Shown: one piece after another, positions 11,151 to 61,237 of the stretch | Numbering within the stretch: the stretch's first letter is position 1 | Layout of the letters: every line of letters begins with the position of its first letter | Source of the DNA: Polytrichum commune | Lineage: Eukaryota > Streptophyta > Polytrichopsida > Polytrichales > Polytrichaceae | Assembly: GCA_950295325.1 (NCBI GenBank) | Contig: OX485803.1 | Location: 69,019,554 to 69,083,553 of the forward strand | DNA: 64,000 nucleotides | Direction: 5' to 3' | Notes under the pieces: model-generated | What the model was told of the DNA's origin: nothing | The model's input: the letters and a program-made list of their open reading frames with translations, nothing else | Databases searched by the model: none | Translations under genes and position numbers: made by a program

Positions 11151-11519
11151 AATTGCCCATGAGAGTTCCAAGAGCCATTAGTTTGCAAAAACCTAGAACA
11201 CAAATGCAAACCCTAACAAGAACATACATGGTAGTCATTGAGGACTATGACCATATGACAACAATGGATAAAATGTGAAGTGGATGAAACCAACACATCT
11301 ATTGTCAATATTTTCTCTAAACCTTAGGGCTTTTGTACATCTACATTCATTTAAAAAATATTAATAGCCTTTTTAGATGTACACACTAGAGAGTAATAAT
11401 ACTTCTCCCCTATGTATACTATGTACTCTAATGCAACAAATAATACTCCTTCTTACACTCACGTTAGTTTGTACATGGTACAAAGAGGCCACCCCCTGGG
11501 AGAGTGTGCAAGGAGTTTT

Positions 11520-13759: not shown

Positions 13760-14571
13760 CTAAGCAAACAACAACCATGTCCCACCCTAAGAAACACCTA
13801 AATCCAACATTCTTACAACCCTCATGTGAATCCAAAATTATGTCACTTGCAACTACGCTCACACCAATATTGCCCGGATGCGAAATCCATGCATGGAAAG
13901 AAGCGTTGCAAACCTTAAACCCTCCCAAAACATTTCAAGGAAGCACCCTGCTCCGGACCAACAAAAGAAATGAACACAAGCAAAACCTTCAAACCCTAAA
14001 ATTAACATAAGTTGGCTTCTTGGTTTTCCCTTGGACGAAGGTTTGATGAAGAAATTTGATTCTAAAGTTCAAATAAACCATAAATTTGATCCTTTGTAAA
14101 TTAAATTTTTTAGACCCTATTCTTGGTAAGCTGTGTTTTTTCTAAGCGCGACATATAGATTTGATGAATGACAATGAGGAATTTTTTTGTGGTCCACATA
14201 TAGCTTCAAGTCAAATTAGTTCAATTGTTGAGTAACTTGGTCATTCTATTTATGATGGAAATGGTTATTTGTAAATCACATGCAAAACATTAAGTAGCAA
14301 TGCTAATGGGGTACCCTTTGTGTACCCACAATAGTAATACCTCAACAAGAAAGGAAAAGCTTGCAAAGCAGCATTGAATAAATGGGGAATTAATAAAAAA
14401 AATAGCTTGAAAAGGTGTCTTGCTTTAAGGGCTTTGAAGAATCTAAGCTATAGTAAGGTCTTGAAAATTACATAAAAGTCATATTAATTATAATTTATAA
14501 AGCAAGGGTCTCCAAAAATAGATTAGATCAAACCAAATAACTTCCCAAGAAATACTTGATTTACGCACATA
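13760..14571. other. Intergenic, no gene seen
   Basis: AT-rich DNA between the second MITE and the left end of the giant element. No credible ORF; only the inverted repeat at its right border (from 14570) is of note. Confidence 0.5.
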
Positions 14572-14598
14572 ACACTATATTCGTTAAATTGAGACTTT
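14572..14598 (+). repeat. Left terminal inverted repeat of giant element
   Basis: Begins ACACTATATTCG after a TA dinucleotide and matches the complement of 31771-31797 without a mismatch, including the flanking TA. Confidence 0.75.
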
Positions 14599-14695
14599 TT
14601 GGGCATTTTGAGACATTCACATAAATAAGAACAAGGATAAATGGAACACATATTGGAGAAAGTTGTAAGATGCGAACACTTTGTGTCGGGTATTT

Positions 14696-14975
14696 AGAAC
14701 AAGAACCCCATTAATAACTCATATTTGGGATTGTTTAGGATGCGCAATCCAAACCTTAGGCCAAATTGAAGGGGAAATCTTAAAACATTCATATTATCGC
14801 ACACAAAATATGAGATCTTGTATGAATATGTTTTAGGTAGGGCACTCCAAACCCTTAGACCATATTGAAGGGGAACTATGTGAACCAATATAATATAACA
14901 TACAAAATATTCCAAACTCATATTTGTGATGGTTTAGTTAGGGCAATCCAAACCTTGGACCATATTGAAGGGGAA
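14696..14975 (+). repeat. Left subterminal tandem repeats (three units of about 100 bp)
   Basis: Each unit carries a GTTTAGG...CCAAAC core (14733-14754, 14830-14852, 14932-14953) followed by TTAG.CCA.ATTGAAGGGG. The cores have the length and outer letters of the 22-bp palindrome seen elsewhere in the element, with altered inner bases. Tandem cores next to a terminus are typical of transposase-binding subterminal repeats. Confidence 0.75.
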
Positions 14976-15118
14976 ATCATGTGACACTTATATTATTGCA
15001 AAAAAAACATACAAAGTATGGCATGTAAAATGCATAGCATGCTAACACCACACATACATTGGATAGTGCGACCCAAAATGATGTTGCCTATGGCCCAAAA
15101 CCCTACGCCTACTATGGC

Positions 15119-15925
15119 CTATCTAGCCTCGGAGATTGCCTCTTTTTCTTTTGCTTTTTTATCTTTTGCCTCTTTTTCTTTTGCCTCTTTTTCTTTTGCT
15201 GCGGCTTCTTTTGCTCGCATTGCTTCAACATTCCTGAAAATCTCCGCCCCGCGACTATAGCCATTCTTGGGGTGACCGCCATCCATAAGACATTTTGGAG
15301 TCCGTCGGCCGCCCGAAATATACGTCGAAGAATTCGAATACGATGAAGTGGATTGTCTCGCATTTCTGGTCATGGCGTACATACGCTCGAACTCGATGGA
15401 CGCACTAGACCGCATAGGTTTACGGGTGGGAGCAACCTGCAACGCGTCATTGCAAGACCACATGTGTTAGTTTAGGGAGGAAGACCCAAACGTGTCACAC
15501 GATCATTTTTTAAGTGCAAAATGATTGTAATGCGCGGTTAACCATGTTTTAGAGAGGGGGGGGGGTTCACCTTGTCACCGGGGGCGTTCCCATCGGAGTT
15601 GGCAAGGAGGGGCAAGGCGTCCCGCAAAGGAATAGGAAGGGTTCCACTCTTCGTTGGCCGTGCGTCCATCCGCAGCCGCCGTTGAGGTGTAATACTTCCG
15701 CCGGGCCGAGAGGGGGATGTCCGGACGCATTTGCGATTTATGCCCTTGAGCGGCGACGGGGACGGAGATCGCCGTAAGATTTGCTTGGGTGGGGGGCTAT
15801 CGACGACGCCGGCGTCAATAGGCTCCTTGGAGTAGTCAATGGTTGACGCGGCGTCGTAAACGGTCTCGTAGAAGAAGCTCCCCAACTCTGACTCGCTGAC
15901 GATGTCAATCGAGGGCTCCAAACGC
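15119..15925 (-). CDS. Two exons of a charged, unrecognised protein
   Basis: The first exon starts after a strong pyrimidine-rich acceptor (ending TTTTTGCGCCAG) at 15925 and ends at 15569 with donor AAG|GTGAAC; the second starts after GCGTTGCAG at 15439 and stops at 15119. The junction is phase 0 (...NAPGDK joined to VAPTRKP...). The product starts acidic, then is rich in Ser, Pro and Arg, and ends in a lysine/alanine/glutamate coiled-coil-like tail with AKEKEAKEKEAK-type repeats. No start codon is seen ahead of the first acceptor, so a donor further upstream is needed. Candidates are phase-0 GT sites (CCT|GTAAAC near 16171, TTT|GTTAGG) inside the phosphatase-like exon, which would make these alternative 3' exons of that gene. 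No function can be given. Confidence 0.5.
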
Positions 15926-16030
15926 TGGCGCAAAAAAGGAAACGAAACAAAACCCAAAGGAAGAGGGTTTGCTAGAGCGCGTGAAAATCAAGATACATAT
16001 GAAGCATATATTACACAAAGTGGGCGGACG

Positions 16031-16057
16031 CATACACACACACACACACACACACAC
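16031..16057. repeat. CA microsatellite
   Basis: An uninterrupted CA run just 3' of the phosphatase-like exon; on the gene strand it reads GTGTGT and could offer cryptic donors. Confidence 0.9.
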
Positions 16058-16065
16058 GTGCTGCC

Positions 16066-16878
16066 TCAAATGAGCTTGTTAAATTTCGCGTGAGAGAACA
16101 ACTCTCTGTACAAATGGTCTCGTGGATCCAAGTATCTCTCGCCTATCGGATTATTCCTAACAAAATTGTTTACAGGTAGTCCGCTTCCCCTGAGCGCCTG
16201 GAGGTATTTACTAAGGTCTAACAAAAATCGGTCCCGGACCTTCTCGACCGTCCACGTAGGGCAAACTATTAAGTTGGCCGTCGGGTTCAACATGTTCTTT
16301 GCGGCGCTGTCGTCCACCATGAGCGTGTTCTCCCGGGTGGGACGGACGTCGTAGGGGACACCTATCAATGACGGACGCTGGTCCCAAAAAATGGGCTTCA
16401 AGACCTTGAGGTATTGGGGGGAAGCGGGGTTGTTTGGTTTTTTGACGACTTTGCCGTCCGGTGTGTACAATATTCTACAGGCTTCCTGTGCTAGGACCAT
16501 GCAGGGGGGCTCGATGCCCTTGAAGATGAACTCCACGACTGCATTGGTGTTCTCGGCCTTCATGGAGCTCCACACGACCACCCACCATCGTTGTTGGGCG
16601 ATCTGGAGGAAGGTCCGAAGCCACGGGCGGAGGTGAACTAGCTTGCTCTTTATGAACGTGGGCGGCCCGTCGTAATTCGCGTCCTCGGGCTTGCAAAAGG
16701 GCACCGTGGGGGTCCTCGGGCAATGAACGCATTGGACGAGGACCCCGTTGAGGTCTAACACCAGGAACCGGGTCTTAGGCGGCAAAGGTGGAACGGGTAA
16801 AATGGGGGGGACCATCGCGCTACCTTCCTCGCTTCTTGGAGAGGCCCGGCGGGGAGCCGCGACGCTATGCTCCGATCC
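16066..16878 (-). CDS. FCP1/NIF-like phosphatase domain exon (exon 4)
   Basis: This exon alone encodes a recognisable HAD-superfamily domain of the FCP1/NLI-interacting-factor type: FLVLDLNGVLVQ (motif I, with Asn where the second catalytic Asp of DxDx normally sits, as in a plant subgroup carrying DLNG), VVVWSSMKAENT (motif II area) and MVDDSAAKN (motif III/IV area). Members with DxD dephosphorylate serines, for example on the RNA polymerase II tail; the Asn casts doubt on ordinary catalysis. The frame stays open upstream of its first ATG (16815) to an acceptor at 16879, which is why I join it to the gene above. It could instead be a separate gene starting at 16815 with a product of 249 residues. 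Confidence 0.7.
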   Translation of the reverse strand, partial: GSEHSVAAPRRASPRSEEGSAMVPPILPVPPLPPKTRFLVLDLNGVLVQCVHCPRTPTVPFCKPEDANYDGPPTFIKSKLVHLRPWLRTFLQIAQQRWWVVVWSSMKAENTNAVVEFIFKGIEPPCMVLAQEACRILYTPDGKVVKKPNNPASPQYLKVLKPIFWDQRPSLIGVPYDVRPTRENTLMVDDSAAKNMLNPTANLIVCPTWTVEKVRDRFLLDLSKYLQALRGSGLPVNNFVRNNPIGERYLDPRDHLYRELFSHAKFNKLI

Positions 16879-19800
16879 CTGTGGAGACGAGCGACATAAG
16901 GCGGGGGAAGACTATGTCATGCTATGTCCACTTAAAGTGAATACAATATTTTCTGTGAAAAATACAAGAACCACTATGCATAGGCGGCCATACAAATGCA
17001 AGAGGGGGCAAGAGGAAAAAAATACATTTGAACACGAAAACAAACATAAGGGCACAAAATAATAATTTTATTGTTTGCAATGCTCTATGTACAAAATGCC
17101 TAGGGGTGCGAAGCCGCGTTGAACGATCCGTTCAAACTATCCTAATTCAACATCTACAAAATTGTGTGCACGCCTCCAAGTTCGAGTAAAATCGTGGGAC
17201 GGGCAACGTTAGTGATCGTCAGGGGGGGGGGGGGCTGAAGGGATGCGAGAGCGGATGGACGGGGTGGGGGCAGTTCCTCCTAGCTAGGGGGGACACGACC
17301 ACGGCAACAAGACAATAGACCAGGAGTTTGGGTCGAGCGACCCAAACTGAGGAGGTCTCAGTGTATTACCTCTCCCTGGTCATGCCTGGACGCCATGGAA
17401 GCCTCCACCGCCTCCGCTTGTCGTTCTCTCTCGCCACCGCCTTCTCCGACGATGTCAGCACCCCTCTCCTGCAAGCGCTCAGTGTCAGGACCTTCTCCTA
17501 ACCCAACCTCCGCATGTGCATCATGCATAGGTTCATCGATTGGGATAGGAGTAGAGGTATCACCAGGCCCTCGAGGACCTTCAACATCAGGCATGGGTGT
17601 GTCTCTTTCAGACCCATGCTGGTCCATTGAAGACTGAGCGGTAACGGGGTTTGGGTCGGCCGACCCAAACTCTCGTGCATCATGAGATTGGCCTTGTTGC
17701 ACTGTAAGGGGGGGCGGGTTTGGGTCGGACGACCCAAACATGTGGGGGTCGTCCTGCTGATGGGGCGGGGGGATCACCAGGGGCGGCCGAAGTGGTGGGG
17801 GGGTCACAGGTCTAGAAGACCCGGGAAGGCGCCATATATTGGGGTCATCCGCTTGTTGAACCGGCGGATACGGACGGACGTGGGGGGGAACCATGTGCTG
17901 AAAGCTGAAGGAGGATTGCGGCACGGGCTGCGGAGGAATGTTCTGGGGAGGGAAGCCGGGGGGCAAGTGTGGAAATGAGCCCGGGGGAGCCACCACCAAA
18001 CCCTGCGCCCACATGCCTCGAATCACTTGCGTGATCAAGTCCGCACTAGTTGGAGGTTGCGCCAATGCCCGCAGTCGCTCTTGCTCCAATAAGAGAGCCC
18101 TTAGCTCTGCCACTTCGTTCCGCACTGAGGGTTCTTCAGCAGCGGCCTTTTGCAAGCGGACGCGTTGTTCTTCGTCCCTTAACATCTTCTCGTTGGCTTC
18201 TTGCATGGTGAGGACTTCCGGCTTCACCTTCACCATCCCTGCGAAGGCACCTGGAGAGGGAGGGTCCGACCTGAGCCGTTTCGCGAGCTCCATGTCGTCC
18301 TCGTCTTCGCTGCTAATGGCAATTGTCTCCTCGATGGCATAGTCGCCATAGAGTTTCTTGCCTTTTAGTTTCCTCCTCTCCCTGAACGCGGCAGTCGCAT
18401 CCCTGGAGTACATGTCGCGGGCATCATCAACCGTCAGGACGGGCACCAACTTACTTTGTGGAGTTGCTACCCGCATTGCCTTCTTTCGTTGAGGGGCTTC
18501 AGATTCCTGAGTGAAGCCTGTTCCCCCTTCTTCGACCTCGCCCTCCACTTTAGCCTCTTCTTCCTCCTCTTCCACCTCCTCATCCTCCTCCTCCTCCTCC
18601 TCCTCGTCACGTGGTTGCCGAGAGGATGTGCCTGGATGCACTTGGACCAGAGGCTCTGGTACAGCAACTGGAACCTTTATGGCCAATTCTTCAGGGTTGA
18701 CACGCCTCGCCTTATCCAGCGGGCTCTCACCCCCTTCAACAGTCTCCTCGGCGTAGCTCCCAGGGATCCAGTCTAGTATATCCATCTTCTTCGCCAATGA
18801 TTTTTGGGCCTTGTAGAATTGGATGTCATTAAGGTCTACATAGCTGTACACGTTCAGCCCCAACATCTGCAGAAATCCCACCAGATGTTATTATATGGCA
18901 TAACATGTGATTCCACCGAAAAGGGGAAGTACATACAAGACCCAATATCAATTGCAAAGGTTATAGTTTGGGTCGAGCGACCCAAACTAGCATCGGTGTT
19001 AGTTTGGGTCGCTCGACCCAAACTATGAAAACAATTATGGTAAGGAGCTTACCATGCCAGCGAAGACGGGCTTGGTGCCGCCGAAGACGTTGAATATACA
19101 GTCCCCTCTTCTTATCAAGGCCCTCATTATTCGGAGATAGAATTCCATCCGCAACTCGTCCGAATGGTATATGGCATATTTTGCCTCGTCGTAGAGGGAC
19201 TTACTTGCGCCCAGGCCTTCTGGAACTTGGAATAGTTTCTGCATCCGGGTTATGGGGTGGTTCTCCACCTTCAGCAAGGTTGCTTTGAACACAAAATACA
19301 AGCACAACAAATTCATGACTTTGGTTTTCTTGTCCTTTAGTGTCGTGTACACCCCCTCCGCCGGTGCAGCAATGTAGTGAGACTTAGACACCGCATACTC
19401 AGGCTGCAATTTCCTCACAATTTCATACACCTGCTCTGCTCTCCTATCCTCTACTATCCACAGCCACATATCGACCTCCCTAAGCTTAGGGCTTGCATAC
19501 TCCACGAACTTCGACATGAAGGGCTCGTAGAAGGGTGTACCCATTGTGCCCTCAAACGTACTCCCAGGAATGCTCCGGAAGTCTATTATACCAAAGGGGA
19601 ACCGGTCCGCTGCTCTTACTCGTATTTCTTTCCTGGAATCAAGGCCGGGCCATCCCTGGATTTTAATAGGGTCAAAAGCGACAAGGTTGAAATGCGCATC
19701 CCCCTCAAAACTTACAATCTTCTTCTCCTTTATAAAGTTTGAGAAGGCACGCGTCGAGTGTTCTGGAAGAGCCAGGTTCTTCCCACCCTTCACCAGTTTT

Positions 19801-21986
19801 GACTTTAGGAAGTCTTCTCCTGCCTCCCTGATCAGAGCTGCCATGGATGCACTGGTGAAGTTGTATTCAGCCTTGAACGCTCTCCAGTTCACCTCGTTCA
19901 CCTCGTCATCGACAAAAATGTTCTTTTCCGGGATTAGCTTCTGCAGCTCCTGGACGATCGTTGTTTTCTTCTTCCTATTCTCCGCCCATTCCTTCATTGT
20001 GTAGCATGAAGGAACAAAGGATTTCGGCTTGGTGAAGACTATTTTGGGGTATACCCAAAATCTCTTAGGGGTCGGGTTGTTGTGTAAGATGTGCGTTGCC
20101 GCCTTCCCCATTTCCGCCTCCGAAAGACCCTGCAGACTTCTAAAGAATTTTCTCATGAGAGGCTTCATCGCCTTGAATCGAGAGGACGAGTTGAAGAGGT
20201 TGCATGTGTCAGGATCCATGAGATCCCCTGTCTCGTGTTTCTCAAACACTGTCTTCCACTTCTGCCAAACCATGTCGGATGATGTAATCAAGTAGATCTC
20301 TCCTCTTAGCTCATTGTACTTCTTTTGCTTGTGACTTGAATTGTCAATTGAGGAGAACTTGTTTATCATTTGGTATTTGAAAAGCTGCACAAGAGCATAG
20401 AATGCGTGTTAATTCTCAATATGTTGTTTCCAAACAAAGAAGAAAAATGATGAACAACAAACTGCGTAGACAAACACAAACTAAAACACAAGGTTTGGGT
20501 CGAGCGACCCAAACTGTATGAAGAAACACAAGGTTTGGGTCGAGCGACCCAAACTGTATGAAGAAACGCAAAGTTTGGGTCGAGCGACCCAAACTGTATG
20601 AAGAAACCCAAAGTTTGGGTCGAGCGACCCAAACTCTGTTTGAGAAACAATGCTCACCTCCCACTTTGGATTCTTGTCTTTTGCATTCTCCCTTTCTTTG
20701 GGAGGCCGGCCGTAGAACTCCCACACATCCCGCGATGCCATGATGTTCCTAATCCAAGAAGCTTGATATGCCCGCTTCTTGTTATTCATGTTGAAATAGC
20801 GGGAGATATCGCTCAGCCGGGTTTCGTCGTCCGACCACACGACCAATGCCTTCCATACCTTCAATTTTTCCTTTAGACCATTAGGATCATTCCACTCCGT
20901 CATCAGTTGAAGTTTCTTTGAAGCTTCAACACTGTGCTGACCGTCAATCAGCCAAAAATCGCCTTTCTCTATAGAAGGCCACATATCCGGTGTAGGCATT
21001 CTTTTGTGTCCCTGAGGCATGACAACAATAGTCTGCCTATCATGTTTAAACTGGTCGCTCACCATCTGGGCGATTAACCAATCAACATACGCATCTTCCT
21101 TTGCCCGAACGCACTTCTCTGGTGGCGCTAGGTGGCATTGTGCGATGTTGACATCAAACTTGAATTCTCTGCCCATGAAAGAACAATGTAAACACTTGGT
21201 GTCGAAATTGTTGAGTATTTTCTGGATCTCCGATGGCTCCACTCCTTCCCCGGGCTTGGGCATACATAGCTCCGGTGAAACAGGCTCATCTGTCATGGCA
21301 GATACTGACTCTCTCGGCCTCTTAGATGGTGTCGTCTGCCGGCTTTGTGATGGCGTCGGTGTTTCACTATCAGCAGGAGTTGCCGTAGGTGTTGTTCTCC
21401 TCGAGTCAGCTGGAACCGGTCGGGGCTTCCTCACTGTTTGAGGTCTTGACGACCCTGCGCCCTCTTCAGCAGTCGCCTTGCGCCTCACAGCTTGTTGAGA
21501 TTTTGACTTGCTTTGCTGGGTCTTGTTTATTGCGTTGATTGTCTGCTTAAGTTTAGTGAACCTGGTTGCAACCTTCGTGTTTGAAATGATCGCATCTATG
21601 AAGATTGTATCCGGTTTAACAATGTCTGGCTCAGCGCAGGATTCCTTCACGTATACCGGATCGAATGGCTCGGCTTGCTCATGCATGAACATGTGCACAT
21701 TTTCCAGAGAAGAGTTTTCCAGGATGACGTCAACGTGCTCTCCTAGAGCATGAACTAATGCCACCTCCCATCCCGTCAAAGCATCCCATGTGTGTTGCTC
21801 CTCTGTGCCAACCTTCAAAACAAGGAGGATTTTGAATTGAGCTGCCTTTACTACAAGAAAGGACCATGCAATTACAAGGTCTTCTTTTGCTACGTAGGAT
21901 TGGTTTTTAGGAGTTTCGTGCTCCTGCCAGATCGCGTCTGGTGCCGGCTTGAACCATCGTTCTCCAGGTCTTTTCTTGGGGGGCAT
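16066..21986 (-). CDS. Composite ParB-like / methyltransferase-like / FCP1-like protein
   Basis: Four minus-strand exons join in phase 0: 21986-20658 (donor GAG|GTGAGC), 20384-19053 (acceptor TTGTGCAG, donor ATG|GTAAGC), 18866-17370 (acceptor TTTCTGCAG, donor GAG|GTAATA) and 16878-16066 (acceptor CTCCACAG, stop TGA), giving about 1656 residues. Around residues 265-375 is a ParB/Srx-like segment with FWLIDGQHSVEASKKL (compare the DGQHR and GHRR signatures). Across the exon 2-3 junction (about 875-915), GDCIFNVFGGTKP then VDLNDIQFYKAQKSL copies the layout of motif I and the following acidic strand of beta-class DNA aminomethyltransferases, but no clear DPPY is present. An acidic run (about 976-1000) and a long proline-rich region follow, with two copies of FGS.DPNP encoded by palindromes. 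The C-terminus is an FCP1/NIF-like HAD domain. Start: the first ATG directly follows an acceptor, so a 5' untranslated exon is likely. Role unknown; DNA binding or modification for the surrounding element is inferred. Splitting into separate genes is possible. Confidence 0.6.
17326..17739. repeat. Three 22-bp palindromes in intron 3 and exon 3
   Basis: Arms GTTTGGGTCG and CGACCCAAAC enclose a 2-nt centre at 17326-17347 (AG, in the intron after exon 3), 17649-17670 (GC) and 17718-17739 (GA), the last two inside exon 3. In the coding copies the reading frame is kept and both encode FGS(A/S)DPNP. Confidence 0.9.
18966..19023. repeat. Two 22-bp palindromes in intron 2
   Basis: Perfect arms at 18966-18987 (centre AG) and 19002-19023 (centre CT), 36 bp apart start to start, in the intron between exons 2 and 3 of the composite gene. 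Confidence 0.9.
20493..20634. repeat. Four palindromes at exact 40-bp spacing in intron 1
   Basis: Perfect copies at 20493, 20533, 20573 and 20613, all with centre AG, separated by a conserved TGTATGAAGAAAC.CAA spacer. They lie directly 3' of the exon 1 donor and create an artificial in-frame extension of exon 1. Confidence 0.93.
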
Positions 21987-22010
21987 CTGCAAGTAGAAAT
22001 ACATATGTTA

Positions 22011-22766
22011 GTTTCGGTCGGGCGACCCAAACTCTTTCAAATCATATAGGCTTATGTCTGGGTTTAGTAACATTTATATATGGGGTTACTTTTCACAGGT
22101 TTGGGTCGAACGACCCAAACCTGTGCCTACAATGGCTAATGAATAATATATTATTTGGCTACGAAAACCAATCTTTAAGTTCATGGATACAACAATCATC
22201 ACGAGCTACTGTTTTAGTTGTGGGTCATTTCATTATTGCTTGGGTGTTTGAGTTGTTGTTTATAAGTGTAAGTATTGTTCGTAAGCAGTAAAAATTTACG
22301 CAGAGTTTGGGTCGTTCGACCCAAACTTTGTAGCGGTATGGAATGATCGGCTATGGCCTTAGATCATACCCAAGATGATGATTACCTAAATTATGAATTA
22401 CCATTTCATGCGCTGTTTGGGTCGAACGACCCAAACTCTGCAGATGGATTGGGTCGAGCGACCCAAAGCATGTGCTAGTTTGGGTCGAGCAACCCAAACT
22501 CTGCAGATGGATTGGGTCGATAGGGTTAGATATTCACCCAAGATGATGATTAAATTAATTATAAATGAACATTTGATGCGGAGTTTGGCTAAACCCTAGA
22601 CCCAAACAATGCTTATGGTTTGGGTCGAGCGACCCAAACTCTGCAGATGGATTGGCGCCCACGACCCAAAGCATCTGCTAGTTTGGGTCGAACGACCCAA
22701 ACCATCTTTAGAGTTTGGGTCGAACGATCCAAACCAGCTGGAGAGTTTGGGTCGCTCTACCCAAAC
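22011..22766. repeat. Palindrome cluster 5' of the composite gene
   Basis: Ten full or near-full palindromes start at 22011, 22099, 22305, 22415, 22449 (shortened), 22478, 22618, 22681, 22713 and 22745, plus half copies (22510, 22580, 22804). Centres vary: GG, AA, TT, AG, CT. Part of the cluster is a degenerate tandem with a CTCTGCAGATGGATT spacer. The copy at 22094-22125 is extended to 15-bp arms by CACAG/CTGTG. The cluster sits between the probable promoter (about 23.7 kb) and the start codon, so it is likely in a 5' intron. Confidence 0.88.
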
Positions 22767-22859
22767 CAGCTGCAAAGTTTAGTGTTTTAGGGTTTCAAAC
22801 TGAAGTTTGGGTCGTCTCTCGAAACACTTTTGATTCCAGAGACCTTTATAATGTGTTTA

Positions 22860-22897
22860 CGCAGCATATACAATGCTTATGCATTGTAGATGCTGCG
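22860..22897. repeat. Short perfect-like hairpin
   Basis: CGCAGCATATACAATGC and GCATTGTAGATGCTGCG form a 17-bp stem with one mismatch around a TTAT loop. It lies upstream of the palindrome cluster in the presumed 5' region of the composite gene. Too short for a typical plant microRNA precursor. Confidence 0.8.
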
Positions 22898-23048
22898 AAA
22901 CTCTAAAGAAATTGACACACATAAAGAAGTTGAAGAAATCACCTTGCTTTGCAAACTACACAACAAGCTGCTGTTGGAAGCAGTTCTAACAAGCTAGTCT
23001 TGGAAGCTGATTCTAGAAAGGATTGGATATCAGAAAACTAAGAACGCC

Positions 23049-23160
23049 TCACAAACATTCACTCTGAATTGAAGAAGCTTTCACAAACATTCACTCAGAA
23101 TTAAACAATCCCTCACAAACATTCACTCTGAATGTAACAAGTGTTTACAAACATGAACAA
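23049..23160. repeat. Tandem repeat of about 30-35 bp
   Basis: The block TCACAAACATTCACTC(A/T)GAAT recurs three times, with a fourth degenerate ACAAACAT. It is part of the 5' region of the minus-strand gene. Confidence 0.75.
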
Positions 23161-23401
23161 AGAAGCTATCTGAAGGCCACACATGCATCCTGATTTTCGA
23201 ACAATCATTCTAATTCCGAAATCACTCTACACTCACACATGAATGTTTCTAAGACCAGGAGGAACTGACACAACCAATTTGAAACAACACTCACACTCCA
23301 AAACAACAAAGACGTTCTGAAATGGCTAAAATGTATAGACTTTAATACAAAAACAAACCCTAAACTCATACTACACTCAGAACTCGGTCAATGCGCACTC
23401 A

Positions 23402-23760
23402 ATGAACAACAAAATAGATCAAAAGAAGAAGAGGAGTGAAAGAGAGAATGAGATAATGATGAAGAGGGAAGGAGAGAGGGAATGCGAGTTCGACAAGGAG
23501 AGAGAGAATGCAAGGGAGGAGGCGGCGCTTTCAAGAGCGGCGGCGCCTCCAGAAAGTATGAGGAACGTACAAAGGAGGAGGAGCTTGGAGCGGAGGAGAG
23601 AGAAGGAGAAAGTGCGGAGGGGAGAGTGAAAGGGGGAAGGTCACTCAAGGGCGGGACCCATTCGGGCCGGCGCCTTTCGTGTCCGTTCGGCTCATGGCCG
23701 CCACGTGTCACGGGGCACTCCATGGCCCAAACGAATACACAATCTGAGCCATTGGAGAGC
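23402..23760 (-). promoter_or_regulatory. Probable promoter and pyrimidine-rich 5' leader of the composite gene
   Basis: Reading on the minus strand, a GC-rich segment with a G-box core CACGTG (23702-23707, in CCACGTGTCA) is followed by about 230 bp of pyrimidine-rich sequence (complement of the GA-rich plus strand 23402-23640), which is typical of plant 5' leaders. It lies 1.7 kb upstream of the first ATG, whose position right behind an acceptor already calls for an upstream exon. No TATA box was identified. The minus-strand ORF through this tract (127 codons, mostly Ser/Pro/Leu) is probably leader sequence. Confidence 0.45.
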
Positions 23761-24371
23761 CCCAGGCCCATCGACGGTCGATAGGCCTCGCAGGTGGGTA
23801 TCCTTTAGCCACCTATCCCATACCATCCTTGAGGATACTAAAAAACCTTTATAGCCTAAGGTTTTTAATTTAATGGTCCCCCGATGGATTTGCTAATATC
23901 AAATAATGAAACTGTATTGGTTTTGTAATTTTAGTAATCTACACATATGCATGAATCGAGAATGATAGATACTAGACTAAGAGGAGTATTTAATAATTAT
24001 ATTGCAATCCTCGTAGGCAATTACATAATGGAATAATATAACTATGGTAACCATTTACACAATGAATGGTTTCGAGTTATATATTGTAATTATCTATGAA
24101 GGTTGTTGGTAAAGGACAATGCTATAGCCTACGATGGATCCGTTAACACATACCATTGAACTAAATCTAATTATACAAGTTTATGTAGTGTCATTCATTA
24201 TAATATGGAATTATGCAATATTAAGTGTTGACAACTTAATATCATTGTTGTTTGCGAAAAGCAACAAAGATGTTGTTTGATTTATAGCATGATGGAACAA
24301 TAACATACTTATTTACAAGTTTACATATTTATGAGATACAAATATATTGAAGCGGGTGTTTTTGCTGAAGA

Positions 24372-24497
24372 ACCCAATTAAGAACTCATATGAAGATGGT
24401 TTAGGTAGGACGACCCAAACATTAGACAATGTTGTTGTTGTTCATATATTTAGTTGAGACAAGATAAAGTCTACAAATATTGAATATAGTGATAGTA
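24372..24497 (+). repeat. Degenerate internal copy of the element's right end
   Basis: AACCCAATTAAGAACTCATAT at the left matches the flank of the left subterminal repeat (near 14703); GTTTAGGTAGGACGACCCAAAC (24399 on) is a palindrome intermediate; CATATAT..(A/T)TTGAGAC.AGA.AAAGTCT...GAATATAGTG matches the last 50 bp before 31797. It resembles a decayed terminus of a related element. Confidence 0.55.
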
Positions 24498-24682
24498 AAT
24501 GAGAGAAGCACCATGTATACAAATATGAAGCTATCAAATACTAATATGTGGAGTTCAACATTATATGAAGCCATTTAAGCAATCACTTTGTTGTTGGATG
24601 ATCCCTCCACATATATTAAACAACATATCTTATTAGGAAATGAGGCACAAATTACAGTAGATGGTGTTCTATATGGAAGCCA

Positions 24683-25231
24683 CACGGGTAGGTCACTCTA
24701 AGGCATTTTTGTGCACCACGTGCGGCTCAGGGTTTTTTGTTTTGGGGTTATTTACCTTCAAGGGTTGAATTAAAGCCTCCCTATAATTACTTGAATTTCA
24801 AAAATGGCCCATTTGTTTGCACCCTTCCATTACTTATATTGTCCAAGTCACTGCAATTTTTTGTACTCTATATTCCTTTTAAGTAATAAAAGCTAATCTA
24901 CTTCCTGTTAAGGGAAACCATGGAAACAAAGAAGGGTGCAAACAATAATATCATTGCAAACAAAGTTATGAAGAAAACACATAGGAGACCATAGCAAACA
25001 TTATACTAAACATACCTTCTAGGAACCTTATCTTCAGCCCCTATATTAATTTTACAAAAAAATAATGGCCCACATTTTATGTCCATCTAACTTACTTATA
25101 ATGGGATTGTCTACATTTAATGGCCCCTTCATTATTTGGAATTCCTTTATAATTTTTATTTCAAATGATTTCAATCCTCTCTATATTATGCCGCACGTCG
25201 TTTTTAAAATGCACTAAGTGACCTACCCGTG
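24683..25231 (+). mobile_element. hAT-like MITE, copy 3 (interior replaced)
   Basis: Same inverted repeats as the other two copies and target duplications GGAAGCCA/GGAAGCAA (24675-24682 and 25232-25239; one mismatch). Both outer parts align with copy 2, but about 130 bp in the middle (near 24880-25010) are unrelated to copies 1 and 2, making it 549 bp. It sits inside the giant element, so it inserted later or moved with it. Confidence 0.88.
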
Positions 25232-25254
25232 GGAAGCAACCCTGAACAACTACG

Positions 25255-25300
25255 AGGGTGTAGGGTGTAGGGTGTAGGGTTTAGGGTTTAGGGTTTAGGG
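25255..25300 (+). repeat. Interstitial telomere-like repeat
   Basis: Three TGTAGGG-type units followed by three TTTAGGG units, the plant telomere repeat. It begins within 20 bp of the right target duplication of MITE copy 3. A remnant of break repair or telomerase capture is possible. Confidence 0.9.
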
Positions 25301-27170
25301 TATATAAATGTGTCTTGTTGCACTCGAAGCCATAAATGAATGGCGCATAGGTCAAATGAGGGGGCCAAGTCGCTTGTGGTTCTAAAAACAAATGTATATA
25401 GATATCACAATAGTCTAATTCATGAACATGAACGTTGGTTACATTTCATGTTATGTTTGTTATGTATGTTATGTTACGTCGTAGATGCGTTCATATTTAG
25501 TGTATAAATCTCTAAATATCTTATTTAGTGTAGTGACACTAGAACACACCAACATGTATTTAAGGACATGTTCTGCTCAACTTGCATTGAATAGATACAA
25601 CTATATATGTTTAGATTTTTCATCAAACATTTGTTAAAACAAATAAAGTTGATTACATTTTTTTTGGCAAGCCAAATCAATAAAAACTATAGGTACAAAA
25701 CACAACTACAATAAGTATGATATTTAGTGTTTGATACACTAAATACAAGTGAATACACAATATATCAATAACCATATGAAAGTAATAAACATTAAATATA
25801 AGCTATAGTAATATGTGGCATTGACATGTTTGAATTTAGTGTTAGTAAGGATGTGAAAAGAAGAAATATACGTGAGAGTAGAAGGTAGCAACACATTTAC
25901 TTCTAACACTAACTGTCATAGGATTGAAAATTAATGTTGAGCATGTAAGGGTGGTAACCATAGTCCGCCAAGAGCCTAAGGCTAGTGTAAATGCAGCCTA
26001 CAAAATTTGTGACTTAGCCTATAAAATTTTGAAAGTGTAGGACAAAGAGCCTATGGACAATTTTAAAACATAGGATATCAACCTATGTGGTAAAAAACAT
26101 GTAGGAAATTTTGCCTACAAAGTTTTTAAAAGAGCGGATTTTAGCCATTCATCCTTCTTCAAATTGGGAAATTAGTTGGCCTAAGTACATATCTTTAGGC
26201 TAATACTCGGGGCTCTTGAGTGGCACATAGGCGGATATCAATAATAGCCCTAACTCCCTCCCCGTCGATCTTTACAAATACCACAGCCAAAGCCCCATCA
26301 CCGCATAGAGGTTGAATCAGAAGATGGTGAGGACTTTCACCCTTAAACTCATTTGAATTTTAGCAACCTTTCATAACTTATAATCAACTCTTTAAAAAGG
26401 AGTTGGTTAATCCTTGGCCTTCAAACGTGGTGAAGGGCTTAGCCAGGTTCAATTCCTGCCAAGGATACCACTTAGTACTCAAATTTTGAATTTAAAGCCT
26501 ACAACATTAAAAGATATGAAGGATTTTAACCTACTAAAAATTAGTTTTAAAGGCAATTGGCAGGTAACTTAAAAACTCAAAAGGTTTTCAACTTACAAAA
26601 ATTTGATATTGTAGGATGCAACCTATGCCATGAGGGAAATAGCCTATGCCCTTTTAAAGAGGTAGGCAATTAACCTCAATAACTTCAAAAACTTTTCGGA
26701 CACTGGTGGTAACAACACTACATATAATCAAATCCACACATCATATTTTGTGTAGTTATTTAATAGCGGAATTAGGAGGTTAGTTGTCCAAGGTCATTTG
26801 ATGGTTGGCGCCACGAAGAGGCAAGCTAAATATGGATGCTCTATTACCAACAAGAAGCGGGAAATTCTGTCAGAAGGTTTGAACTTAGGTTTAGGGTTTA
26901 CGTTCGGGCGGGAAAGGGATCCAAAGAGGAAGGCCAAGGCGGAGGCGGGTAGTATAAAGTACCAAACCCCCCAAACTTTGCTCCTTTTTTCTCATCTCTC
27001 CATTCTGAAATGGTTGCAAGCTCTCTCAAGTAGTGGTGGAGTGCAAGGTTCGTGTATGCATCCGTTGATGAGTAGCTAATTACAACAGCCATGCACGGCC
27101 TGAATTCTTCCAATTAGTATCCACGTAGCTGAATATGGAAGATTACCGCAATTTAAGGCGGAATTTGCGG
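25301..27170. other. Gene-free stretch inside the giant element
   Basis: AT-rich; contains a small palindrome (25722-25744, arms ATTTAGTGT) and a tRNA-like segment (26411-26465). A plus-strand ORF near 26798-27079 is biased and unrecognised. This is the region between the two divergent genes of the element, so regulatory DNA may be present. Confidence 0.45.
26411..26465 (+). other. tRNA-like segment (possible SINE head)
   Basis: TCCTTGG and CCAAGGA form a seven-pair acceptor-like stem, GGTTCAATTCC matches the polymerase III B-box and T-loop, and ACCA follows shortly after. A D-arm-like CCTTC/GAAGG stem is present but there is no room for an anticodon arm, so it is not a working tRNA. It may be the head of a tRNA-derived SINE or a deleted organellar tRNA copy. 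Confidence 0.4.
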
Positions 27171-27173
27171 AAT

Positions 27174-28008
27174 GTTTGGGTCACTCGACCCAAACCCACC
27201 CCCATAGTGAGGTTTGGGTCGAGCGACCCAAACCCACCCCTATCACGGGCTGGGCCTGGATTAGCAAGCCCATCCTGTCACGAGGTTTGGGTCGCTCGAC
27301 CCAAACCCACCCCCTCTCACGGGTTGGGCCTGGATTAGCAGGCCCATCCTGTAACGAGGTTTGGGTCGCTCGACCCAAACACACCTCCATTGTGAGGTTT
27401 GGGTCGAGCGACCCAAACCCACCCCTGTCACGGGTTGGGCCTGGATTAGCAGGCCCATCCTGTCACGAGGTTTGGGTCGCTCGACCCAAACCCACCTCCA
27501 TTATGAGGTTTGGGTCGAGCGACCCAAACCCACCTCCATTATGAGGTTTGGGTCGAGCGACCCAAACCCACCGCTATCACGCGCTGGGCCTGGATTGCCA
27601 GGCCCATCCTGTCATGAGGTTTGGGTCGCACGACCCAAACACACCTCCATTGTGAGGTTTGGGGCGAGCGACCCAAACCCACCCCTGTCAGGGGTTGGGC
27701 CTGGATTAGGAGGCCCATCCTGTCACGAGGTTTGGGTCGAGCGACCCAAACCCACCCCTATCAAGGGCTGGGTCTGGATTACCAGGCCCATCCTGTCACG
27801 AGGTTTGGGTCGAGCGACCCAAACCCACCCCTATCAAGGGCTGGGTCTGGATTACCAGGCCCATCCTGTCACGAGGTTTGGGTCGCTCGACCCAAACACA
27901 CCTCCATTGTGAGGTTTGGGTCGAGCGACCCAAACCCACCCCTGTCACGGGTTGGGCCTGGATTAGCAGGCCCATCCTATCACGAGGTTTGGGTTGCTCG
28001 ACCCAAAC
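27174..28008. repeat. Fifteen-copy palindrome array upstream of transposase gene
   Basis: Palindromes start at 27174, 27212, 27285, 27359, 27397, 27470, 27508, 27546, 27619, 27657, 27730, 27803, 27876, 27913 and 27987. Steps are only 37-38 or 73-74 bp, set by a short spacer (CACCTCCATTGTGAG type) and a long one that itself contains a hairpin (arms TGGGCCT/AGGCCCA). Centres are almost all AG or CT. The array ends about 190 bp before the probable start codon of the transposase-like gene. Confidence 0.95.
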
Positions 28009-28200
28009 CCACCCTCATGCACACAATGGGGATGTGCATAGACGGATCCTGAATAAACTGTTGTGCGCTCCATCTTTTTGGAACCCATCGATATAATATT
28101 CATACAACATGTGTTATGATAAGGTTTCTGTGTTTTTCTATTGGACCCTATAGCTTTTGTCAATTCTTTACAAGGTTCCATGTTCATGTGTGTAGGCAAA

Positions 28201-31200
28201 ATGGATGGGTATACTGGAAGAGGGTATTCGTCTGGAGAAGACATGGCCACTTGGCCATCTGCATCTGAGGAAGAGCTAGACATTGTCGGGGAGGCTACTA
28301 TGGATGAGAGTTCAGATGAAGAGCATTTCGATATACCTTCGCGTTCCGTACCGGACTGTCCCATTCCAGAGTGTGCCGTGCTTTCAAGAGCTTCATGGGT
28401 GAATTTGGATGTGTTACTTCTTAATGACAATGGGGTTGTTGTGGCGGAGGGTATCTGTCGTAACACCCATCCACAAGATTGCATTGATCAAAATCCGCTT
28501 GGCACCGAGGACGTTGGGATTGTCATATTGGAGTCACTCGTTCCTTCTGAGGTGGATCCCACTCATAGGTTCTCCCTCCGCAGGTGGCCATTGAGGAATG
28601 TCACGACTGATGGAGTTAGCTTGCGTGAACATGAGCAACGACACATGCAACTCGAAAAGGAAATGCAATCAAACATGCGGCCACGCAAGGGTCAAAGAAA
28701 GTACGATACTGTGGCACGTCCTTCTCCATCTGCAACTGATTGTAAACGTCAAAGGCTGCTTGGGGAGGAGTCCATAAGAGAAGTTGCCACAAAGGATTGT
28801 TGTGTGCATTGTTGTTGCCAATTGTTTCCAAGGGATAAATTGAAGGCCATCCGTGAAGAAATGTGGCTTGGAGATTTTCGTCTAAGATCCACAAAAAAAC
28901 TTGATGTCCATAGGGCAATACATGTGAATGGGACGGGTCGCAAGGTAATCACCATTGAAAGCATAGACGTGTGTTGTAAGGCATGGTACACCATTTACGG
29001 TGTGTCGAAGGCGGACTTCTATAGACAAGCTGCTTATGCCAAGGAAGGCCGCCGGTCCCGTCACCATGGGAACGTGGGTTTAAAGAAACCTAGGGAAGCA
29101 ACAAGGCAAGCAACGGCAACTCTAGCAACCATCATTGTCCCCCTTGCTGATGCAATGCCGCACAAAACACGCACACTCACAACCGGTGAAAAGGTTGTGG
29201 AGAAAGTTCTTCCCACAGGCACAAAATGGAAAGACATATTGTTGGACGTTAATGCAGTTGGCGAGAAGATTGGGTTGGAGCCAATTTCATTGTCAAAATT
29301 AAGTGCAATCAAGAAACAAAACTTTAGCGAATACATTACAAAAAGACGAGGGGACAAATTTGCCAGGTGCTCTAATTGCGAGAAGTTGAAGCGCCTCCGG
29401 GATGCACACACGATGGGTACCGAGTCATATGCAGCGCATCAATTGAACTATTTCAAGCACGTAAACATGCAAGAGGCACACCGTAATGATTACTACACAA
29501 ATAGAGCTTTGTCCATCTCCAGGCCCTTGGAGGTTCTTACGGTCATCCATGACAAAATGGACCATGCCAAAACAGCCTCCCCATGTTTTGCAAATCGAAT
29601 CAAGGCCACGGATGGGTTTTTTAAGTTGCCTGTATCGGTTACAGGTGAACTTCGAAACAATGTCATGACATACCCTAAATGTTGTGGTTTTTTATTCCGT
29701 GATGTACTGGAGAACATGGATTCCTTCATAATGGTTTATTCATACATAGATGCTAATCACGTTGGGTTGGCATTGCAGGAATGATTGCACATAGACACGG
29801 TGATGTCAAGTTTGCTCATTATGCTCTTGATTTGTATCCAGCGGATTCAAACCACACGATAGGATCATTTGCAAGGCTTTTACGTGATTTAGAGAAACCA
29901 CCAGCCTATTCTTCAGGATTGTTATTTGAGAACACGGGTTCAACACCTTTATATGAAGCGGTGTTGGATGGAAAAGATGTATGCTTGCATTCGTTGCCCG
30001 AGCCACCCAATGAACCCGTGATTGCCAAGAAGTTGCCTCCAACTTTGCGTGTCCAATTGGACAATTGTGCCAAGGACAATAAAAGCAGATATGTATTTGC
30101 ATATTGGTCGTTGTTGGTTGCGAAAGGCATTTTCAAGGAGGTTTTTGTGTCCTTCCTATTGGTAGGCCACACGCACGATGATATTGATGCATCTTTTGGG
30201 CGGTGGAGCATGAAGTTGCGGGAGGAGGATTTTCCTACAATCCCATTATTGATGAAGTCGTACATGGATTTGGAGAACGTTCCCGTCATCCCCCATATGA
30301 TTGAGGAAGTGCCAGACTTCAAGGCATTTATAGAACCTTATATTCGAAGTGGAGCTCACCGATTGATCGGGCATACGAAGGCACAACGATTCCGGTTCTA
30401 CATGCGTGACGATGGTGTCCCGGCCATGCAATACAAGTTGTTGTGCACGACACAAGACTGGAGCCCGCCGGAGGGTCTTCTTGTGTGGCGCGTGGATGCG
30501 GATGGGAAGACCATGTTACCGGATGGGGAGCCTAGCCCTTGTAAGCCAATAGCCATGAAGAATTTGGAGGATATTTTGAAAGGTATATCAGGCTTCATAC
30601 AATATTGGGAGAGTTTGAAGATAGCGGATGTTGGCGGATCATGTTGGCATCGTTATGGGAGTTGGATACATTATTGGACACGTGTTCGTGCCACCTTGGT
30701 AGACCTCCACCAAGATAGCCCTCATACTTTGAGGCATGGATTTTGGCCACAAACACGAGTCGATGTACAAGCTTCAGAGGCTAGTCTTTTGGGAAATGGA
30801 GAGGTTCGAGAGGAGTTTGATGTGGACGACCATTACGTGGGGCCTGCTAGTAGTCGTCCGCCACCATCTTTCCGCATTGCAGTGGATTGTCATGAAGGAT
30901 ATATGTTCATTTTGCGTCCTGGAGACGAGACATATGTGAAGTCAGTGTGGGTGGCAAGAGCTTTGTCCAAACCCAATTTTGTAACTTCCAGCCCTCATTT
31001 TCGACAAATACAAGTGGAGTACTACCGACCGACGGCAAGGAATGAAGATGTGATTCGGCATTATACAGGCTGGGATACAAACCCTAACTTTCGGTGGAAG
31101 GTGGATTCTGAGCACGGTCCATCTTGGGTAGATACAGATTCCATATTCATAGCATGGAAACCACGGAAAAATCATAGTGGATCAGTATCCATCCCTCAAA

Positions 31201-31265
31201 AGTACATAACTTTTGCAAAAGACAACCTTGCTCGGATCGCAGAAGAAGCAACCCACGTTGAATGA
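28201..31265 (+). CDS. DUF7869-type, DDE-like transposase gene
   Basis: Exon 1 (28201-29644) ends at donor ACAG|GTGAAC, a 134-bp intron follows, and exon 2 starts at 29779 after CATTGCAG; the phase-1 junction gives VTGMIAHRHGD, restoring a continuous product of about 976 residues. Without splicing the frame stops at 29784. Features: cysteine pairs CCVHCCC (about 197-203) and CSNC (about 390); a DVCCKAWYTIYGVSK segment (about 256-270) common in this family; then VIHDKMDHAK, VQLDNCAKDNK and VGHTHDDIDASFG, three acidic sites (about 450, 573, 612) that resemble a DDE/RNase H-like triad; and a C-terminal VQVEYYRP-like module near 895. I recall this family as uncharacterised, transposon-like proteins of non-seed plants and oomycetes. 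The first in-frame ATGs are at 28180, 28186 and 28201; I chose 28201. It lies within the giant element, right behind the palindrome array. Confidence 0.75.
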
Positions 31266-31570
31266 GAAGTTGATAGGATTGTGTTAGCATGATTATAGTG
31301 TAAACAGTAATTCTACGAACATATATTACTCATATGTGTGCTCTTCAAAATTGGGGCAGAGTTTGGGTAGAACTTACGAATACTATATTGTTTTGGAGTT
31401 GGATGAATATCCATTTACTATATTTCAATACAAATGTGAAGTTCATTTTTTTATTAAGTTTGGGACTAAATTGTCCATTGAAAAAATATGCATTTATTAC
31501 ATGCACTTTGTATGTTGCAATGTCTATATTCTATGGAGCATGCTAATAATAGAAATCATTATATATATAT

Positions 31571-31797
31571 TTTTGGGTGAAACTTGTTTGGAGTGCTCTA
31601 CCCAATGTGTTTTTGTTGATGAAATTGGTGTTGAGTGCTCTACCATATGTGCTTATGTCCGCACATCATAGGTGTGGGATATTAGAACATTTAATATATT
31701 TGAGATTGTTGACAATATAGTTTCAGGCATCTTCATGTTCTTTGATCCATATATTAATTTGAGACTAGAGAAAGTCTCAATTTAACGAATATAGTGT
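31571..31797 (-). repeat. Right subterminal motifs and terminal inverted repeat
   Basis: On the minus strand GGGTAGAGCACTCCAAAC (31603-31586) and TGGTAGAGCACTCAACA (about 31648-31632) match the left subterminal cores, now in opposite orientation. The last 27 bp (31771-31797) are the complement of the left terminal repeat. Confidence 0.7.
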
Positions 31798-32717
31798 TAC
31801 ATGCATGCAACATAACTTAGGCTAAGCGAACGCTAGGAGTGTGTTAGAATCAAGGATGTGCAAAATGGACGTAATGCAACCCCTAGACATCATAAGTCAA
31901 GACGTGACACCCCTTGACGTGGTAATTTGTTGTCTTTCAACAATGCTCTGAGGATTAATTTTATTTCATATGTTGGTCGTCTCCTCTAGTCAACTACTAG
32001 TAGCAATCAAATTCTAAAAACAAAATTTCAAATTTTTAGAAATAAAGGAATATTAGATATTGTTGAATGCAAGATCTAATGGTCTAGAATTTTTTTTTTG
32101 GTTTAGCTCGTAGTAGTTGACTAGTTGGTCAACTACTCTAGTTCAACTGCTGCAAACAACCAGGAGTGGCCAACCAACTAGTTGATTGCTCCAAACCTTC
32201 TTAGAATTGATTTTGAATTTTTATTTATTTTATTTTATTGGGTTGTATTTTAATTTTTGTCGACTACCATGTAGTAGTCAAATTAGCAATCAATTAGATC
32301 ATTGACCAAGGAGATGACCACATCAATTCACCTTGGGTAAACTGTCATACTTACACCTCGCCAACGTGACGTTTTTGGGTAGGGTGTCACATCGCTGTTA
32401 CAAGACGTGATAGATGCCAACATAAAATCTTTGAGTAGAATCCAAGCAAGCATCTAAGCAATTTACTTACTCTCAAGTCTATTTATCTATCTATCTACAT
32501 GATAATACAATACGTACCAATAAACATACTATTCTATATAAAGAGCCCAAGACAAAATTGTGCTAAAAAATCTAACTTTAATATCTAGGGACCTCCATTC
32601 TTTATTGATGTTGAAAACCACGTGCGACCACACAATTATATATAGATATACACACATTTATTTGAGCCATCTCTAATATATGTAATTATGTATAATTTTT
32701 ATTTTGAAAAAATACAA

Positions 32718-60608: not shown

Positions 60609-61237
60609 CAGCGACTTCGGCAGCCTATCGGAGGTTGAGCACTCTTCACTATGAGCTGTGGTAATTTTCAGCTATAACCTGTCTACACAGAAACAAGTGG
60701 GTAATTATAAAAATTCGGAGACATTGAACTAAGCTTAGAACGAGATCAGCTGAGAGCTCCCGCCCTTGGAAGCTTAGGAATCTGTGACGTTTCAGAAACA
60801 CGATATAAAAATCTATCTCAGCGGAGAAGAGGATTCTTAAATCAGTTGGACCTTCTGTACCAAATGACCGCATTTTAAAGCTGTAGAAACCTGCCTGTTG
60901 TCACAGGCGCAGCTGGTGGGGGTACCAACGCTTTAAAGACAGGGAAGAGCAGGAGAAAATTTCAATCCTTTACACTCCGTACTCTTTCTTATCTAGTTGC
61001 TTAAGTACAGTAGTTCAACTGTTTCGTGCAACAACCCTAGCAATCCCCATATATTGTCTCCGGATTTCTTCTTCTTTTTATCATGACAGTCATTCCTGTC
61101 AAACTTCATGCATCAACATCTTGTTGCAACCAACCTCCGGAAGCTGCTGCTGAGAACAACCGAATTACTGGCTCAGGAATTTCAGGCTGCTTCCATGTGC
61201 CGCCAGGAGCCTACTTACTGTGATCAATCTCGAAATT

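Follow-up and report, generated by a model that had tools for sequence, protein, structure and literature searches.

The locus raises two questions: whether a 17.2-kb region of a moss genome bounded by an inverted repeat is a single mobile element and, if so, what the many palindromes inside it do. The window, the whole 64,000-nucleotide stretch of Polytrichum commune DNA that was analysed, contains a complete terminal inverted repeat (TIR) DNA transposon at 14571-31798, as judged from its TIR pair, a 4-bp duplication and near-full-length copies at other loci. A repeat search of the window gave an inverted repeat of 28 bp without a mismatch: AACACTATATTCGTTAAATTGAGACTTT lies at 14571-14598 on the forward strand and its complement at 31771-31798 on the reverse strand. 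At three or fewer mismatches it has two matches in the window, against none in 100 shuffles. Comparison of the flanks revealed a target site duplication, ACAT, at 14567-14570 and 31799-31802. Since T14570 and A31799 are part of this duplicated flank and not of the inverted repeat, 28 bp are left for the repeat and 17,228 bp for the element, with a duplication of 4 bp. A sequence-only reading had put the perfect repeat at 29 bp; the inverted pair stands, and the 29th base pair is a chance match from the ACAT flank. The TA target duplication suggested there has to be given up. Elements of the Tc1/mariner type duplicate TA, and they are ruled out by flanks that carry a 4-bp duplication of varied sequence. 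CACTA/EnSpm elements have CACTA ends and a 3-bp target duplication, and are likewise ruled out: the earlier exclusion of this class was right, and its reason, that TAA/TTA does not fit, is replaced by the AACAC ends and the 4-bp duplication. The motif GGTAGRGCACTCCAAAC, noted in opposite orientation inside the two ends, was found again by eye. On the left, GGTAGGGCACTCCAAAC at 14836-14852 lies within subterminal direct repeats of period 99 (14716-14984, forward strand, by repeat analysis); on the right, GGTAGAGCACTCCAAAC was read from the sequence at 31586-31602 on the reverse strand. The direct repeats are putative transposase sites.

Genome-wide, the 28-mer with up to two mismatches has 589 forward and 595 reverse matches, and none in the control. 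Probes of 301 bp from the left and right ends yielded 889 and 1,040 candidates; the best 40 of each were full-length or nearly so, at 94–100% and 96–100% identity respectively. Near-identical ends are present on seven contigs, and seven contigs make up at least 404.6 of the 407.8 Mb of the assembly. Pairing was analysed for the 100 28-mer sites among the matches listed, which take in the whole of C1 and the beginning of C2. Seventy-four of these are neighbours in 37 convergent pairs with less than 50 kb between the ends; 21 of the pairs span 16.0–18.6 kb (median 17.4 kb), and only one divergent pair of neighbours among the sites listed is equally close. An estimate of about 590 copies of about 17 kb would bring the family near 10 Mb of the 408-Mb genome; complete copies must be fewer, because 26 of the 100 listed ends are without a convergent partner within 50 kb.

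The flanks were read for the window copy and for 30 of 36 other end pairs. An exact 4-bp duplication is present in 30 of these 31 and a longer one in none, compared to 4-bp matches in 14 of 930 mispaired ends. The sole miss is a 36.9-kb pair (C1:14111120-14148032), perhaps the ends of two different copies. The insertion-site context leans to S|WNNW|S, with the outer S present in 25 and 23 of the 31. The window itself holds a paralogous empty site for the copy at C1:41524117-41541438: the joined flanks of that copy match window 11294-11493 (reverse strand) continuously, with a single TAGT at 11385-11388. When these joined flanks were searched against the genome, the best 40 matches were the two flanks themselves and 38 that run through the joint at 77–83% identity. 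These empty sites are paralogous, not allelic. The window also contains xyloglucan fucosyltransferase ORFs.

Ten other copies (A–J), picked from the end-probe and 28-mer matches, were read. A, B and H are 96–99.6% identical to the window copy in the main aligned pieces, over 17 kb; C, E and F form a second group and D, I and J a third. Copy G is a 4.8-kb internal deletion derivative that keeps the TIRs and the 4-bp duplication, and J is interrupted by another element. Eight of the ten have at least one in-frame stop in the exon alignments. The window copy, D and E have none, and the gene T of copy D is split by an insertion. It might be argued that the region is not one element and that unrelated DNA happens to be enclosed by the inverted repeat, a chance or composite border. 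The unusual size and the listed ends without a partner would suit this reading, which is refuted by the duplications, the empty sites and the three copies alike over 17 kb, and to which we give practically no probability. The proposal of one 17.2-kb mobile unit is thus borne out. The search it had called for, with the repeat and with some 300 bp of each end, returned inverted pairs and further near-full-length copies, the flanks gave empty sites and exact target duplications, and the convergent pairs contradict the case it had named against itself, a repeat that never occurs in inverted pairs. The region belongs to a giant TIR transposon family, recently inserted, that duplicates 4 bp on insertion. 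Inverted termini on dispersed copies and a duplication of fixed length are as expected of a TIR cut-and-paste transposon of class II, subclass 1.

The transposase-like gene expected in the interior is T, on the forward strand. Its two ORFs, 28123-29784 and 29757-31265, are joined across a 134-bp GT-AG intron (29645-29778), placed by comparison with a relative whose reading frame stays open there. Exon 1 (28123-29644, open from 28123) carries the first acidic motif, IHDKMD, and exon 2 (29779-31265) is a DUF7869 domain (PF25273, E 1.2e-41) with VQLDN and GHTHDDID. Four divergent DUF7869 families of the genome share these motifs in alignment, as IxDxMD, Q.(D/S)N and GHTHxDxD; in one family member the second has S. 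T is thus a DUF7869 protein with a DDE/D-like triad, a putative transposase. An AlphaFold2 model of exon 2 had a pLDDT of 33.7, too low for use, and an RNase H fold is putative. Compared with other subfamilies, T1 has a dN/dS of 0.23–0.36; that of T2 is 0.14–0.36 for copies with dS above 0.1, and 0.45 for one 100-codon piece. DUF7869 was absent from 14 control genomes, a pattern-based scan of viral contigs found no relatives of exon 2, and no mention of the domain was found in the literature searched.

The large composite gene was also correctly foreseen. M lies on the reverse strand and has three exons encoding 1,389 amino acids: exon 1 at 20658-21986 (443 aa, with FWLIDGQHSVEAS), exon 2 at 19053-20384 (444 aa, ending in NVFGGTKPVFAGM) and exon 3 at 17358-18866. 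The splice sites were placed by eye. M is without a significant match to known families, including DNA-binding ones, in Pfam, PHROGs, NCBIfam and PDB, and no relatives of exon 2 were found in viral contigs by a pattern-based scan. Its AlphaFold2 model, at pLDDT 29.6, was too low for use. Motif-like stretches seen by eye, DGQHS within FWLIDGQHSVEAS and NVFGGTK, had given rise to the idea that M combines a ParB-like nuclease with an N4/N6 DNA methyltransferase. Profiles for these were negative in the same four databases, and the idea was rejected; the would-be catalytic stretch varies, reading DPIK or EPLK, and AKGM in the sister element described below.

A third gene, P, is an FCP/SCP-like (NIF) phosphatase ORF of 281 amino acids from stop to stop at 16066-16911 on the reverse strand (PF03031, E 1.6e-15, over the cut-off). 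NIF phosphatases usually carry DLDxT, at the place of which P has DLNGVL. Downstream of P on the same strand, P2 (15538-15987) is a conserved ORF kept in other copies, possibly a further exon or a small gene. To our knowledge T, M and P are not normally found together, as the sequence-only reading had said of the genes in the interior.

Comparisons between subfamilies indicate that M and P are under purifying selection. M1 and M2 differ from other subfamilies at a dN of 0.11–0.16 and a dS of 1.4 to saturated, with dN/dS below 0.1 where dS is finite; for M3 the ratio is 0.07–0.19, and 0.55 for one 127-codon piece of copy D. P has a ratio of about 0.2 against the C/E/F group, P1 one of 0.12–0.22 over 272–281 codons and 0.04–0.29 on fragments, and P2 one of 0.20–0.50 against other subfamilies and derivative G. 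For the close copies A, B and H, with few changes, dN/dS ranges from 0.15 to above 1. Measured between the window copy and copy D, dS is 0.06–0.14 in T and 0.25 in P1, and it is saturated in M1 and M2. The genes within one element thus differ in divergence age, and the subfamilies seem to exchange segments.

The dense palindrome family that had been reported in the interior has the form GTTTGGGTCG-NN-CGACCCAAAC. All 26 copies in the window lie within the element, with none in the remaining 47 kb. A motif search placed three at 17326-17739 (two in M exon 3 and one just 3′ of the M stop), two in M intron 2 (18966-19023), four in M intron 1 in a 40-bp unit (20493-20634), five upstream of M (22099-22702) and twelve upstream of T (27212-27935). 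Palindromes thus lie downstream of M and in its introns, and most of them occupy the stretch that separates M from T and precedes both genes. In the window copy the palindrome nearest to either element end is more than 2.7 kb away. Thirteen sequences together hold 278 perfect sites, followed by 81, 25, 2 and 23 with one, two, three and four mismatches; shuffled DNA has none. Conservation falls off abruptly at the borders of a 22-bp block, 20 positions of which are fixed, and its flanks are near background; this profile was taken from sites with at most two mismatches, a selection that favours the block. In nine copies, excluding the palindrome-free G and the interrupted J, annotated exons take up 67,880 of 152,902 bp; 214 of the 231 palindromes counted fall outside them, and the other 17 are in M exon 3. 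The spacing within arrays is 32–177 bp, and arrays vary among copies in unit length and copy number. The spacer sequence differs between subfamilies, and palindrome positions are kept though much of the spacer is not alignable. Copy G has no palindrome at up to three mismatches, but its deletion may postdate insertion, so that it is no evidence on a need for the palindromes in cis. Genome-wide there are 9,231 sites, compared to none in the control, and viral contigs have none. Of 100 genome sites listed, 81 fall in sequenced stretches that were inspected, namely copies C and D, two of the unrelated elements described below (K1 and K3) and a stretch with near relatives of their accessory gene (K2); 16 of the other 19 adjoin a family terminus at C1:1174918.

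A sister element at C7:5154256-5171582 (17,327 bp, duplication TTGT) shares the first 16 bp of its TIR with the window family. Its gene order is the same, and its proteins are 64–66% (T), 33% (M) and 40% (P, over 243 aa) identical to those of the window element. It is an old relative that has kept size, gene order and TIR start. Because it too has T, M and P, the set is old in the lineage, not a recent accident. The first palindrome has no site in it at up to four mismatches. A different one, GTTTACGGACG-NN-CGTCCGTAAAC, stands upstream of T, upstream of M and in M introns 1 and 2, the intron sites deviating from their own consensus at two or three positions. This second palindrome has 847 sites genome-wide, against none in the control. 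Of eight listed clusters, seven lie within 20 kb of an exact 16-bp terminus in the right orientation, three of these seven with a convergent terminus pair, and one cluster has none; none of these termini is among the 28-mer sites listed. It appears that the whole palindrome set was replaced by another between two lineages with diverged M, a switch that is seen in one sister element examined in full.

The first palindrome also occurs in an unrelated element. An 11.7-kb insertion inside copy J is flanked by a 10-bp duplication, GTGTAGGCAG; a second copy (K1) has the duplication AGTTGGCATG, and a third (K3) was examined at the transposase side only. This element has a different putative transposase gene, with a SWIM finger at E 0.076, below the cut-off. 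Its accessory gene contains DGNHR and a stretch that matches phage DNA methyltransferases in PHROGs (1.3e-5 and 2.5e-5); the match to Pfam N6_N4_Mtase, 0.071, is below the cut-off, and PDB gave no significant match. The palindrome lies upstream of the accessory gene and between two putative transposase ORFs, in a stretch that is probably an intron. At K2, relatives of the accessory gene (80–90% identical) lie near further palindromes, together with a distant match pair (27–29%). No homology between the accessory gene and M is detectable (hhalign probability 1.1%). With the same palindrome in an unrelated element and a different one in the sister, the kind of palindrome present does not track homology to M in any simple way. 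Nothing speaks more strongly against a simple pairing of M and palindrome than the unrelated element, where the palindrome is shared and no homology to M is detectable. Behind the sharing there may be a host protein, or sites may have passed from one element to another.

The explanation we favour, as somewhat the more probable, is that of a giant transposon moved by T, in which an element protein reads the palindromes as a mark of self and P is a retained accessory enzyme. T would likely cut and join the TIRs in cut-and-paste fashion, and the subterminal repeats would give it additional places to bind; insertion is demonstrated by the duplications and paralogous empty sites, and excision is putative. 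A protein made by the element, for which M is the best candidate, would bind the arrayed palindromes, mostly in introns and upstream regions, and so mark the element as self. Binding might shield these noncoding regions from host silencing or else tune how M and T are transcribed, and P would serve as a long-retained accessory enzyme. M as the palindrome binder, and an anti-silencing or autoregulatory system of self-recognition like VANC with unrelated proteins, are suggested by analogy. A wider claim, that these are an unrecognised class of giant DUF7869 transposons with M and palindrome self-recognition, whose password was switched between sisters and is shared with an unrelated transposon, is more tentative and on the whole rather doubtful; under it, the unrelated transposon would have evolved the same key or would exploit the giant element's protein.

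Three other accounts of the palindromes have to be weighed. They could be sites of a host factor, or of T, that mainly drive or repress transcription, M having another role such as DNA modification. Two unrelated elements with the same palindrome are what would be expected if both exploit one factor, and the arrays are positioned upstream of genes; the different palindrome at the same places in the sister would, however, need a second host factor, and the window copy is free of palindromes close to its ends, where transposase sites are expected. We regard this account as unlikely, though deserving of attention. That the palindromes are a functionless short repeat, spread by array expansion and gene conversion between elements, is less probable still. 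The varying unit length and copy number are what tandem duplication gives, and the strongly differing dS of segments makes exchange between subfamilies seem frequent; against this, 20 positions are fixed while the flanks are near random, positions are kept between elements 33–66% identical in protein while another motif has taken over at all of these places, the rest of the window has none, and the 81 listed sites fall within family copies, 10-bp-duplication elements or near relatives of the accessory gene. In RNA, the palindromes can fold into perfect hairpins (-13 kcal/mol), and some lie in M introns, so that they might act in an intron or 5′ leader, in splicing or small-RNA control, and not as DNA sites. 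Pairing would suffice for a hairpin, whereas here the sequence itself hardly varies, either inside an element or from one unrelated element to another, and most of the copies stand upstream of both genes; this account is improbable.

If the wider claim is true, the palindromes would be an independent counterpart of VANC, with one address code in two unrelated kinds of transposon. Close to 1,200 ends, belonging to a DNA transposon some 17 kb long with several genes, indicate that a plant genome has tolerated repeated insertion. With retained accessory genes and a palindrome replaced by lineage, it could be tested directly by what means a large transposon evades silencing, and whether unrelated transposons share or steal self-recognition; the palindrome and its protein would be a candidate sequence-specific epigenetic tool.

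Among known systems, Sola elements duplicate 4 bp, and the likeness to them consists in this duplication, the TIRs and the plant host. The accessible part of one survey lists the Sola superfamily for Physcomitrella (PMC9033089). In the literature on giant moss transposons, ParB/methyltransferase carriers, captured genes and transposon palindromes, as far as its accessible parts go, no comparable element was recognised; the superfamily may already be in Repbase. The closest analogy is with VANDAL, the Mutator-like elements of Arabidopsis. According to the available portions of two accounts, VANC motifs occur in introns and upstream regions, evolve by tandem repeats and differ between relatives with diverged accessory proteins (PMC5735166; PMC10398659). 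Here too, short-motif arrays stand in accessory-gene introns and upstream of the transposase gene and change between related families, and the accessory protein is less conserved than the transposase. In contrast to VANDAL, the transposase is a DUF7869 protein and not that of a MULE, the duplication is 4 bp and the element exceeds 17 kb; unlike VANC, the three M ORFs contain neither DUF1985 nor DUF287 at E up to 1 in a Pfam scan, and the motif is a 22–24-bp palindrome. Fungal DNA transposons of several superfamilies carry TET/JBP epigenetic accessory genes, as described in the consulted part of a recent report (PMC12730594), a parallel in that related epigenetic accessory genes are spread over different superfamilies. 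The shared feature here is instead a cis palindrome, no homology can be detected between the two accessory genes, and Pfam revealed no TET/JBP domain in the scanned ORFs of the element. In size and in having several ORFs in a TIR element, the nearest parallel is an EnSpm/CACTA family of Chondrus crispus, enlarged to 16–20 kb with 4–5 ORFs in the excerpt available (cited in PMC6431247); it differs in its transposase and in its CACTA ends and 3-bp duplication, as against AACAC ends and 4 bp here.

Within the same two copies, the window element (14571-31798) and copy D of its family, the dS of the DUF7869 putative transposase gene and that of the gene for the 1,389-aa protein lie more than 10-fold apart. 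Judging by this difference, the subfamilies seem to exchange segments.

Copy J of this family is interrupted (oriented 15187-26913) by a second giant element, whose putative transposase gene is unrelated to that of the window element. This second element, of which K1 and K3 are further copies, has 10-bp duplications (seen for two copies) and the same palindrome as the window element. Its accessory gene is its own, with DGNHR and a methyltransferase-like stretch. Relatives of the accessory gene, 80-90% identical, are found at C1:463500-481000, and two more remote matches, with 27-29% identity, lie at most 9 kb from them; the palindromes at this locus are mostly spaced 32 bp apart. A relative (45% identical) of the second element's putative transposase gene lies at C7:5172287-5174443, about 0.7 kb past the end of the sister element.

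A further DUF7869 family with many copies and a 692-aa ORF is present at C3:7192400-7207300. No match to the 1,389-aa protein was found in the 9.9 kb upstream, and the window element's palindrome (3 mismatches) and the sister element's (4 mismatches) are absent from the locus.

The segment at window 11294-11493 is a copy of an old dispersed repeat, for which a genome search with the joined flanks scored 38 paralogues among the matches listed. The same kind of repeat took the insertion of a family member at another locus. The two flanks of the copy at C1:28402845-28417345 are alike (~86%), as in a tandem repeat. Elsewhere in the window, ORFs for xyloglucan fucosyltransferase (Pfam XG_FTase), which mark the genome as that of a plant, occupy 61154-63647.
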